43,339 nt of DNA from positions 1 through 43,339 of the forward strand of contig MFEK01000016.1 in the NCBI GenBank assembly GCA_001779925.1. The letters run 5' to 3'. Position 1 is the stretch's first letter, and each line of letters starts with the position of its first letter. Under the pieces are notes generated by a model. It was not told the DNA's origin, made no database searches, and saw only the letters and a list, made by a program, of their open reading frames with translations. Below are positions 27,769 to 30,250 of the stretch, one piece after another. This stretch comes from Candidatus Doudnabacteria bacterium RIFCSPHIGHO2_01_FULL_46_14 (GTDB taxonomy: Bacteria; Patescibacteriota; Doudnabacteria; UBA920; 2-01-FULL-46-14). The translations under genes and the position numbers were made by a program.

Positions 27769-29688
27769 TTATATCAGCTCCCCGGCCTCGCCGAGGCGAG
27801 TCGAGGCGGGCGGGGTAGAGGGCGCGATTACGGCGGGCTGTTTCTGGATTTTTTTGGCAGGCGGGTTCACGTCAGCCATAATTTTGACAAACTCTTCCTG
27901 TTCGATGGTTTCTTGTTTAGTGAGTATTTTGGCGATCTGATCAAGTTTGGCCCGGTATTTTTTGCAAAGCTGGGACGCGGTTTTGAGTGCGCCATCCAAA
28001 AAATTGGCAATTTCTTCATCAATTTTCTGGGCGACCTTTTCCGAATAATTGCGCTGTTCACCGATTTCTTTGCCCAAAAAAATCATCTCGTGATGATCGC
28101 CGTAAGTAACGGGCCCGAGTTTGTCGCTCATGCCATACATCATGACAAGCTTGCGGGCAAGGTTGGAGGCAACCTGGAGGTCGTTGGATGCGCCCGTAGT
28201 AATGTCTGCAAATACCTGCTGTTCCGCCACATAGCCGCCAAGCGCCACTGCCAGGTCAGCGAGAAATTCGCTTCGCGAATGCAGGTGTTTATCCTCAACC
28301 GGCAGTTTCAAAGTATAGCCCGCCGCTCTGCCGCGCGAGACTATGGAAATCTTGTGGACAGGGTCCGCGTGCGGGAGCATGGCGGCCACCAGCGCGTGGC
28401 CGCCTTCGTGGTAAGCCGCGATTTGTTTTTCGCGCGGGGACAACACGCGGCTTTTGCGCTCCGGCCCCAGCATGACTTTTTCAATGGCTTCCAGAAATTC
28501 ACCCAGGTCAACCTGCTGTTTATCCCGGCGAGCGGCAAGAATCGCCGCTTCATTCACAAGGTTAGCCAGGTCTGCGCCGGAAAAACCCGGAGTGCGTTCG
28601 GCAATGAGATTGACATTCAGGGTTTTTAACACGGGTTTGCCGCGCAGATGCACTTTGAGGATTGCCTCGCGGTCTTTTATATCCGGCTGGTCAATGATAA
28701 CCTGTCGGTCAAAGCGGCCTGGACGCAAAAGTGCAGGATCCAAGACATCCGGCCGGTTAGTCGCCGCAATGACTATAACGTTCGTGTCCGTATCAAAGCC
28801 GTCCATTTCCACGAGAATCTGGTTCAGTGTCTGCTCGCGCTCATCATGCGAACCGCCCAGTCCTGCGCCGCGCTGGCGGCCGACCGCGTCGATTTCATCG
28901 ATAAACACAATACACGGGGCATGCTTTTTAGCTCGGCGAAACAGATCGCGCGTCCTGGCTGCGCCCACGCCCACGAACATTTCCACAAACTCTGAGCCGG
29001 ACATATGGAAAAACGGCACATTAGCCTCGCCGGCTACCGCGCGCGCAAGCAAAGTCTTACCGCAGCCGGGCGGCCCCAGGAGCAGCGCGCCTTTGGGAAT
29101 GCGCGCACCAATATTCAGAAACTTTTGCGGGTAGCGCAAAAACTCCACTATTTCTTTGAGTTCTTCTTTTGCCTCGGCAACTCCGGCCACATCCGCAAAC
29201 GTAACTTTTTTCTGCGTCGCGCTGTCCGTGAGGCGTGCCTGCGATTGCCCAAACGACATAGCCCTGTTGTTCTGGCCCCCGACTTGCCGCATCAAAAAAT
29301 AAATAAATCCGGCAATGAGCAGAAATGGTATAAGGAACGGCAAGATGCCTTGGACAAAAAACGAGGTGGCAGACGGACCTTTGACCTGGATACGCGCATC
29401 CTTGATGGCATCCGCGTCAGCATTGAAGCGAACCAATGCTTCACTTAGGTCAGACTGCGACTCTTTGATGGTCCTCACTTTGGAGCCGTCTTTGAGAAAT
29501 ACTAAAACCTCGTTATTGTCAGTGGAAACCTCGATATGATCAACGCGCCGCTCCTTCACATCGCCAGCAATGTCAGAGAGTGTAACCTCTTTGACATCCC
29601 GATCCTCGCTAACCGTCAGGCTGAAAACCCCCGCGATAATGAGGAAGACGAACAAGACAATGCCTAAATTTTTTAGAAACTTCTTCAT
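27769..29688 (-). CDS. ftsH: ATP-dependent zinc metalloprotease FtsH
   Basis: 639 residues. Two N-terminal helices (about 6-24 and 110-130) flank an extracytoplasmic domain. The AAA domain has Walker [14 protein letters not shown], Walker [13 protein letters not shown] and [23 protein letters not shown]. The zinc site is [13 protein letters not shown], with a distal Asp in the C-terminal helices ([12 protein letters not shown]). It degrades misfolded membrane and regulatory proteins. The last 17 residues ([17 protein letters not shown]) are coded by a repeat-like GC-rich palindrome (27784-27825, GCCTCGCCGAGGCGAG), probably a repeat-derived tail. It is followed without gap by the membrane protein. 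Confidence 0.97.
27784..27825. repeat. GC-rich palindromic module at the ftsH 3' end
   Basis: CCTCGCCGAGGCGAG followed by TCGAGGCGGGCGGGG. It encodes the last residues of FtsH. Related to the GCGGGC-type modules elsewhere in the window. Confidence 0.5.
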
Positions 29689-29750
29689 AAGTTAAAATTG
29701 TACCATCTTAACAATCATGAATCAAATGTGCGCTACGCACAATTGAAAGG

Positions 29751-29837
29751 TGGTGCCGCCGGTCGGAGTTGAACCGACATACCCTTGCGGGCGTCAGCTC
29801 CTAAAGCTGATGTGTCTGCCAATTTCACCACGGCGGC
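29751..29837 (-). tRNA. tRNA-Leu(TAG), CCA encoded
   Basis: Minus strand begins GCCGCCGTGGTGAAATTGGC; the anticodon arm TCAGC-TTTAGGA-GCTGA gives TAG (Leu). The long class II variable arm CGCCCGCAAGGGTATG is present, the T loop is GGTTCAACTCC, and the acceptor GCCGCCG/CGGCGGC pairs fully, followed by ACCA. The 5' half overlaps the end of the GIY-YIG gene by 44 nt. Confidence 0.95.
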
Positions 29838-30072
29838 GTATTGTTCTTAAAAATTCCTTTCCAATTCCAGACTTTAAGTATTTTTCATGATTTCTAGCGG
29901 TCTTTCTATCAGGAAACTCTTCGGTGTATATTAATTCAAAGGGCAGATACGATCTAGTGGTCGTTTCTTTTCCTGCATTGTGCTGAGCGACTCTCCTAGT
30001 AACATTATAAGCCAAGCCCACATAAATGTAGTTCTTCACTAAACTACTAATTGCGTAAACACTGCATTTCAT
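29794..30072 (-). CDS. GIY-YIG nuclease-domain protein overlapping a tRNA
   Basis: 92 residues from the ATG at 30072. GIY-YIG motifs are Y6-A7-I8 and Y17-V18-G19, with R25, and the catalytic Glu is E63 in TARNHEKYLKSGIGKEFL. That is the single-domain UPF0213 class. The frame stays open upstream, but those codons are the 5' half of a broken tRNA-Leu, so the internal ATG is chosen; no good ribosome site is seen. The last 15 codons (from about residue 78) are the first 44 nt of the intact tRNA-Leu, so the protein ends in a tRNA-derived tail. Placement between two tRNA-Leu sequences suggests a mobile or homing nuclease. It may also be a DNA repair protein. Confidence 0.85.
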   Translation of the reverse strand: MKCSVYAISSLVKNYIYVGLAYNVTRRVAQHNAGKETTTRSYLPFELIYTEEFPDRKTARNHEKYLKSGIGKEFLRTIRRRGEIGRHISFRS

Positions 30073-30088
30073 AACGATTTTTATTTTT

Positions 30089-30144
30089 GGTCCTAAACCT
30101 GTGCGCCTGCCGGCAGGCAGGTATGCCAATTCCGCCACTCGCCC
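30089..30144 (-). pseudogene. Broken tRNA-Leu 5' half with a palindrome in its D arm
   Basis: Reads GGGCGAGTGGCGGAATTGGC-ATAC on the minus strand, then CTGCCTGCCGGCAGG, then CGCACAGGTTTAGGACC. This is the 5' half of a tRNA-Leu: acceptor GGGCGAG, D arm, and anticodon loop TTTAGGA. A 15-nt palindromic insert interrupts the D arm, and the sequence stops in the 3' strand of the anticodon stem. No matching 3' half (variable and T arms, CTCGCCC) is found in the next 250 nt. It therefore cannot be a functional tRNA. Confidence 0.8.
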
Positions 30145-30146
30145 CC

Positions 30147-30250
30147 CAACTATGCGGGGTAAATCTGCTTGCCCGACTGAAATTTGCAAAGCAAATTTGG
30201 GCGGGCCTTTCGCCACTTTACCCGCCTAACTGCATGAGCAGTTGGGACGT
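30147..30250. repeat. Inverted repeat region next to the broken tRNA-Leu
   Basis: CCCAACTATGCGGGGTAAA at the left is complemented by TTTACCCGCC...CAGTTGGG at the right, with GCCCG/CGGGC and AAATTTGC/GCAAATTT inner arms. It has the GGCGGGC flavour of the dispersed modules. Confidence 0.6.

Follow-up and report, generated by a model that had tools for sequence, protein, structure and literature searches.

The genome of Candidatus Doudnabacteria bacterium RIFCSPHIGHO2_01_FULL_46_14 raises the question of how a gene for a small GIY-YIG nuclease came to lie between a broken tRNA-Leu gene and an intact one with which it shares nucleotides. The window considered here is the whole analyzed stretch of 43,339 nucleotides, and the features of the locus discussed below are all on its minus strand.

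Architecture of the tRNA-Leu locus

Read along the minus strand, the locus consists of the 5′ half of a broken tRNA-Leu(UAG) (30089..30144), a 16-nt spacer, an ORF of 92 aa (29794..30072; ATG at 30072, TGA at 29794), and an intact tRNA-Leu(UAG) (29751..29837). A preliminary description had placed a GIY-YIG gene between a broken and an intact tRNA-Leu, and this arrangement is borne out by the sequence, ARAGORN, Rfam, and a PF01541 match. The 16-nt gap between the broken half and the ATG (30089 versus 30072) and the overlap of the last 44 nt of the gene with the first 44 nt of an intact tRNA-Leu of the same anticodon (ORF to 29794; tRNA 29837-29751) were likewise described correctly. A tRNA survey of this 99%-complete genome found no tRNA-Leu(UAG) besides the intact gene.

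The broken half (30144-30089) starts with the acceptor sequence GGGCGAG, ends just past the anticodon arm, and reads GGGCGAGTGGCGGAATTGGCATA, an inserted palindrome CCTGCCTGCCGGCAGG (30106..30121), and CGCACAGGTTTAGGACC. The palindrome, taken at first for 15 nt in the D arm, is indeed present there but is better read as 16 nt inserted into the D loop after tRNA nt 23, the best reading being the relatives' 20-nt CCTGCCTGCCGGCAGGCAGG minus 4 nt; it is no private oddity, as the same type recurs at the same site throughout the family described below. A complete tRNA with the GGGCGAG acceptor elsewhere, together with absence of the nuclease gene from this site in all relatives, had been named as a finding that would speak against a homing event, and this acceptor is absent from the other four tRNA-Leu genes of the genome. 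Remnant and intact tRNA have different acceptors both in the window and in genome G040, from another family of the order; these two loci therefore require steps beyond a simple insertion into a single gene.

The encoded protein scores 56.6 bits against PF01541 (cut-off 22.6; E 3.2e-15) and keeps Tyr6, Tyr17, Gly19, Arg27, and Glu63, all invariant in a mixed alignment, A1. A PDB profile search with the A1 profile returned the UPF0213 structures 1zg2 (E 4.9e-14) and 1ywl (5.4e-11) and SLX1 (5.6e-07), its closest solved relatives by sequence, which indicates a UPF0213/Slx1-like GIY-YIG protein. Neither UPF0213 nor SLX1 proteins are known to us as mobile or tRNA-associated. The ORF is under purifying selection, with dN of 0.21 and saturated dS against its 72% identical relative in G040 (L167). 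The C terminus had been described as tRNA-coded, which holds for the 44-nt overlap but is not conserved, as the 72% identical relative ends 6 nt short of its tRNA; the tRNA-coded end of the window protein is probably incidental. Because ORF and tRNA overlap in 27 of 65 loci, with tRNA nt 8–10 providing the stop codon in 12, protein ends encoded by tRNA sequence are common, and they follow from gene position rather than marking a conserved domain.

The syntenic anchor of the locus is ftsH (27769..29688). The order tRNA-Leu(UAG)-ftsH-tRNA-Val is ancestral in this taxonomic order, and tRNA-Leu(UAG) lies just 5′ of ftsH in most order relatives examined. Among these relatives, only the window's genome and G040 have a GIY-YIG gene at the syntenic site, and a plain vertically inherited gene was rejected on this ground. 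In G040, the intact tRNA-Leu(UAG) is flanked by two different GIY-YIG genes (L130/L167), the upstream one being the relative of the window gene. A tRNA-Ile lies 5′ of ftsH in genome G003 (L024); upstream of this tRNA is a broken 5′ half with an inserted hairpin, and there is no GIY-YIG gene.

Around the broken half lie traces of an older insertion. The left arm, TTTACCCCGCATAGTTGG (30146..30163), is found immediately 5′ of tRNA-Leu genes at most of seven other places, where the right arms covary. Adjoining it is a D-arm fragment of an outermost tRNA-Leu (AGTGGCGAAA...CAGA; 30164..30217), split by a hairpin ending in GGGCAAG and laid out as in L030/L274, L277, and L278. On the other side, TTGTGCGTAGCGCAC (29728..29742) is a probable trace of the right arm together with the D stem of the outer tRNA; it matches TTGTGCGGGGCGCAC of L030 at 13 of 15 positions, a score reached in 0 of 2000 shuffles. 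The consensus arms (TTTACCCYGYA on the left of a tRNA-Leu, YTTGTRCRGGG on the right) recur in seven genomes at eight places, in most cases enclosing a tRNA-Leu gene, and show C-G/T-A changes in both halves of the stem. Genome G028 has a complete tRNA-Leu inside the D loop of a second one; once the inserts are taken out, the outer gene and the uninterrupted gene of the congener G024 differ at 2 of 87 positions, making the G024 gene, by sequence comparison, a true empty site for the nested tRNA insertion.

From the nesting, three generations of tRNA-Leu appear to be stacked at the window locus. The left arm, the outer D-arm fragment, and the probable right-arm trace suggest that the outer tRNA-Leu was invaded by a nested tRNA-Leu, and that this copy was later broken and gave way to the intact gene now seen there, with its GIY-YIG insert. 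Whole tRNA-Leu genes inside the D loop of another, with covarying 7-bp arms and no ORF, were observed at L030/L274, L276, L277, L278, and L272, with which we group window positions 30146-30217. Inner and outer tRNA-Leu look identical at L276 except for a palindrome in the outer anticodon loop, and L272 is a second nested case in the window's genome, at tRNA-Leu(CAA).

A family of GIY-YIG genes at tRNA-Leu

A search of genome contigs with the window protein and its G040 relative as queries returned 26 loci whose proteins have the motifs of the window protein. All 26 genes adjoin tRNA-Leu or pieces of it on the same strand, and the anticodons beside them (UAG, CAA, UAA, CAG, and GAG) indicate that any isoacceptor can be used. 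At a contig end (L176), the family gene runs into tRNA-Leu-like sequence. A conserved, lineage-specific target, as is typical of a free-standing homing endonuclease, is thus observed. The hosts are Doudnabacteria, Nomurabacteria, Spechtbacteria, Dojkabacteria, several Bacteroidota, Ignavibacteria, and one gammaproteobacterial (Saccharospirillaceae) MAG. Many of the surveyed genomes are metagenome bins; strains of Algoriphagus, Echinicola, Litoribacter, Gelidibacter, and Polaribacter were also included, and these are among the Bacteroidota that carry family genes. In the protein tree, which like the others was built on about 80 columns and is weakly resolved, the label Bacteroidota changes 9 times compared with a shuffled mean of 8.3, so phyla are mixed as by chance. 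The distribution indicates sporadic presence and horizontal spread, again as for a free-standing homing endonuclease.

Most family loci have a broken tRNA-Leu 5′ half with a D-loop palindrome of the type CCTGNCTGCCGNCAGGCAGG, inserted after nt 15 or nt 23, in which the N positions covary (C/G, T/A, A/T). This palindrome type lies near 21 of 23 checked Leu-family genes, compared with 7 of 174 other GIY-YIG loci; it also occurs elsewhere in 18 of 49 genomes. A subset of the Bacteroidota members forms a mirror class, in which an intact tRNA is followed by the gene and then by a 3′ remnant with a palindrome in the T loop. Polaribacter sp. IC066 (L179) has two tandem 300-nt units, each a gene plus a palindrome-bearing half, followed by one intact tRNA. 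At an Algoriphagus locus (L190), the duplicated part takes in the host terminator; the duplicated half can therefore come from the host, and it may stem from repair rather than from a donor.

GIY-YIG genes at other structured RNA genes

The association is not confined to tRNA-Leu. The window's genome has 11 small GIY-YIG genes, seven of which are in or beside structured RNA genes: at tRNA-Leu, at tRNA-Ser, at two tRNA-Glu, between two tRNA-Met, after tmRNA, and within RNase P RNA. The tRNA-Ser gene has a 36-nt 5′ remnant upstream of the GIY-YIG gene, and one of the tRNA-Glu loci has a short 3′ remnant downstream of it. The RNase P RNA case (L002/L010, G000:C6:40412-40624) lies in an apical region, with the stem CCCCGTGAGATA/TATCTCACGGGG flanking the ORF; another GIY-YIG gene (L094) adjoins an RNase P RNA.

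The 108 GIY-YIG genes surveyed across the order fall mainly into two clades, A (51 rows) and B (53 rows), with 99% support. A same-strand tRNA lies within 110 nt of 23 of 51 clade A genes versus 3 of 53 in clade B (Fisher, 2.7e-6); from average tRNA density, the chance rate is estimated at ∼1.4% per gene. No opposite-strand cases occur among the 51 genes of clade A, and some further members are located within or close to genes for 16S rRNA and RNase P RNA. Within the tree, the Asn and Leu clades have support of 99–100. Clade B includes a lineage downstream of tmRNA. A separate GIY-YIG lineage located ∼140–160 nt 3′ of tmRNA in several families of the order (L001, L054, L055, L056, L072, and L123) has 97% support.

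Searches of 287 Patescibacteria genomes with Asn- and Gln-associated proteins revealed the same layout at tRNA-Asn, Lys, Pro, Ser, Met, Asp, Gln, Ile, Ala, Phe, Val, Thr, and others, and tRNA-Glu is also among the targets of other GIY-YIG clades. Asn-family genes mostly adjoin tRNA-Asn, and the tRNA-Asn loci have their own D-loop palindrome, TCCGCCAGCTGGCGGA. A significant 5′ remnant resembling the intact tRNA precedes the gene in 55 of 67 gene-then-tRNA loci and was not found in the other 12; 38 of the 55 remnants carry an insert of at least 8 nt, mostly at tRNA nt 14–24. The mirror class, with a 3′ fragment downstream of the gene, is rarer. The isotype of the adjacent tRNA is the single best match among 18 in 52 of 65 gene-then-tRNA loci and in 15 of 25 mirror loci. 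Half-tRNA duplicates beside intact tRNAs without a GIY-YIG gene were also noticed (tRNA-Gly, L144; tRNA-Arg, L156; tRNA-Ala, L143) and are possibly footprints of lost elements.

Origin of the arrangement

We consider it probable that a small UPF0213/Slx1-like GIY-YIG gene invaded tRNA-Leu here and that the window locus is a minimal mobile element of the homing type. A homing-type event had been suggested for this site, and it is the best-supported reading, now as one instance of a large family; plain allelic homing, however, would not lead one to expect the duplicated host terminator of Algoriphagus. The family as a whole is best read as minimal homing-type elements that invade structured RNA genes, mostly tRNAs, and leave one functional copy through duplication of a half. 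A nuclease lineage specific for tRNA-Leu genes of any isoacceptor would cleave the tRNA gene, probably in or near the anticodon arm, and repair of the break would copy in the nuclease gene together with a duplicate of one tRNA half, which could be either half. One complete tRNA would stay beside the insert, and the displaced half would persist as a remnant. A short palindrome would disable this remnant, lying in the D loop of a displaced 5′ half or in the T loop of a displaced 3′ half. One possible role of the palindrome is to inactivate the orphan half and so keep it from pairing with the partner half of the real tRNA; alternatively, the palindrome may belong to the mobile unit. The D-loop palindrome was considered as the point of insertion, but remnants that reach the anticodon arm point, tentatively, to a break in or near that arm. 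Since many of the ORFs extend into the tRNA, cleavage of the transcript at the 5′ end of the tRNA would strip the message of its stop codon, which might hold expression down. A close pair of loci with and without the GIY-YIG gene was not found; around L116, a DNA search among congeneric genomes returned essentially tRNA-like hits that lacked conserved flanks, and it revealed no empty site of this kind.

It is possible, and here we are more tentative, that these are natural cleave-and-rescue elements. The nuclease would destroy element-free tRNA genes while the element keeps a functional tRNA beside itself, so that cells losing the element would be left without an essential tRNA. Given the conservation of tRNA sequence across phyla, such an element could home between phyla with the tRNA as the sole homology, and it could swap one version of a tRNA gene for another.

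An unlikely alternative to a homing-type element is that tRNA genes were duplicated first, in whole or in part, and that the redundant copy offered a neutral landing site for palindromes and for GIY-YIG genes moved by something else, with a nuclease that does not target tRNA genes. Half-tRNA duplicates without a GIY-YIG gene in the window's own genome (tRNA-Gly and tRNA-Arg), whole tRNA-Leu genes nested in others without an ORF, and the palindromes lying elsewhere in 18 of the 49 genomes would all fit such a history. It does not predict that a single protein lineage keeps to tRNA-Leu across phyla in 26 of 26 cases, nor the well supported Asn and Leu clades, nor the strand bias.

Less probable still is a function at the RNA level, in which the protein acts on the tRNA or its precursor, as a processing enzyme or a tRNA-cutting toxin, and its gene lies near the substrate for co-regulation. 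With overlaps in 27 of 65 loci and the stop codon at tRNA nt 8–10 in 12, tRNA maturation would cut the message, and the involvement of many different structured RNAs also suits this idea. Yet the closest solved relatives are UPF0213 and a DNA structure-specific nuclease, SLX1, and this idea leaves unexplained both the broken tRNA halves and the presence of nuclease genes inside genes for rRNA and RNase P RNA. We regard as very improbable a cassette moved between tRNA-derived direct repeats or palindromes by a site-specific recombinase acting in trans, in the manner of an integrase. In the mirror class, the pairing of an intact tRNA with a 3′ remnant resembles the attachment sites of tRNA-targeting integrases, and the palindrome is a plausible recombination site, but the roughly 300-nt unit contains no integrase, repeat length and boundaries vary, and different GIY-YIG clades keep to different tRNAs.

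Other candidates were rejected: a group I intron in the tRNA with an internal ORF (no Rfam group I match at the locus), a tRNA-targeting integrative element (a ∼300-nt unit whose sole ORF is the GIY-YIG gene, with no integrase gene), a REP/RAYT system (no Y1 HUH transposase; the only protein of the unit is GIY-YIG), and a phage or viral source (no relative in a scan of viral contigs, and only Rhizobium phage proteins of 36–37% identity among phage records). By eye, the tRNA-Asn 3′ of the GIY-YIG gene appears to contain an anticodon-loop group I intron at L213, L215, L216, and L223.

If the homing-type reading is correct, many bacteria undergo repeated invasion of their essential tRNA, rRNA, and RNase P RNA genes by ∼300-nt elements that spare a working copy, and these elements would be natural counterparts of rescue-type gene drives. 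The same reading would account for the pieces of tRNA found next to tRNA genes, for proteins whose ends are tRNA-coded, for the substitution of one tRNA gene version by another, and for genes exchanged between Patescibacteria and other phyla; in a 2025 study, GIY-YIG genes are listed among those predicted to have moved from Patescibacteria into other bacteria (PMC12455944). In the full-text literature, in which subscription journals are thinly covered, we found no description of bacterial GIY-YIG genes with tRNA remnants.

The Allomyces atp6 element is an insert associated with an endonuclease; it brings along or duplicates part of its target, so that the gene keeps working. The window-type elements likewise preserve the target gene by a carried or duplicated part, but the atp6-type elements occupy protein genes with group I introns in mitochondria, whereas those described here target tRNAs without an intron, occur in both 5′ and 3′ classes, and have a palindrome in the displaced half. 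Target-duplicating fungal introns are among the nearest precedents (PMC7315562). SegB of phage T4 is a free-standing GIY-YIG homing endonuclease encoded between tRNA-Arg and tRNA-Ile (PMC2988022); it shares with the window protein the GIY-YIG fold, the free-standing state, and the tRNA region, and SegB promotes the inheritance of that region (PMC2988022), as the window protein may. SegB targets a phage tRNA intergenic region, whereas the window-type genes lie within a broken tRNA gene of a bacterial chromosome, with one half duplicated.

Mobile endonuclease genes in structured RNA genes of Patescibacteria have a parallel in the rRNA gene insertions of CPR bacteria, whose homing endonucleases are mostly LAGLIDADG proteins in group I-like introns; that study calls GIY-YIG rare and outside homing, and its main text does not mention tRNA (PMC11270868). 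Integrative elements with tRNA attachment sites also restore the target tRNA and leave a partial copy on the other side, but they use a tyrosine or serine integrase and carry kilobases of cargo. Short mobile-looking palindromes, some of them in RNA genes, include REP palindromes with RAYT transposases, Rickettsia palindromic elements, and mitochondrial double-hairpin elements. The window type differs from these in having no HUH transposase and in a palindrome type that tracks the GIY-YIG clade and the tRNA target. Two clade B GIY-YIG genes (L017 and L012) lie between inverted palindromic repeats, an arrangement reminiscent of REP-associated transposase genes.
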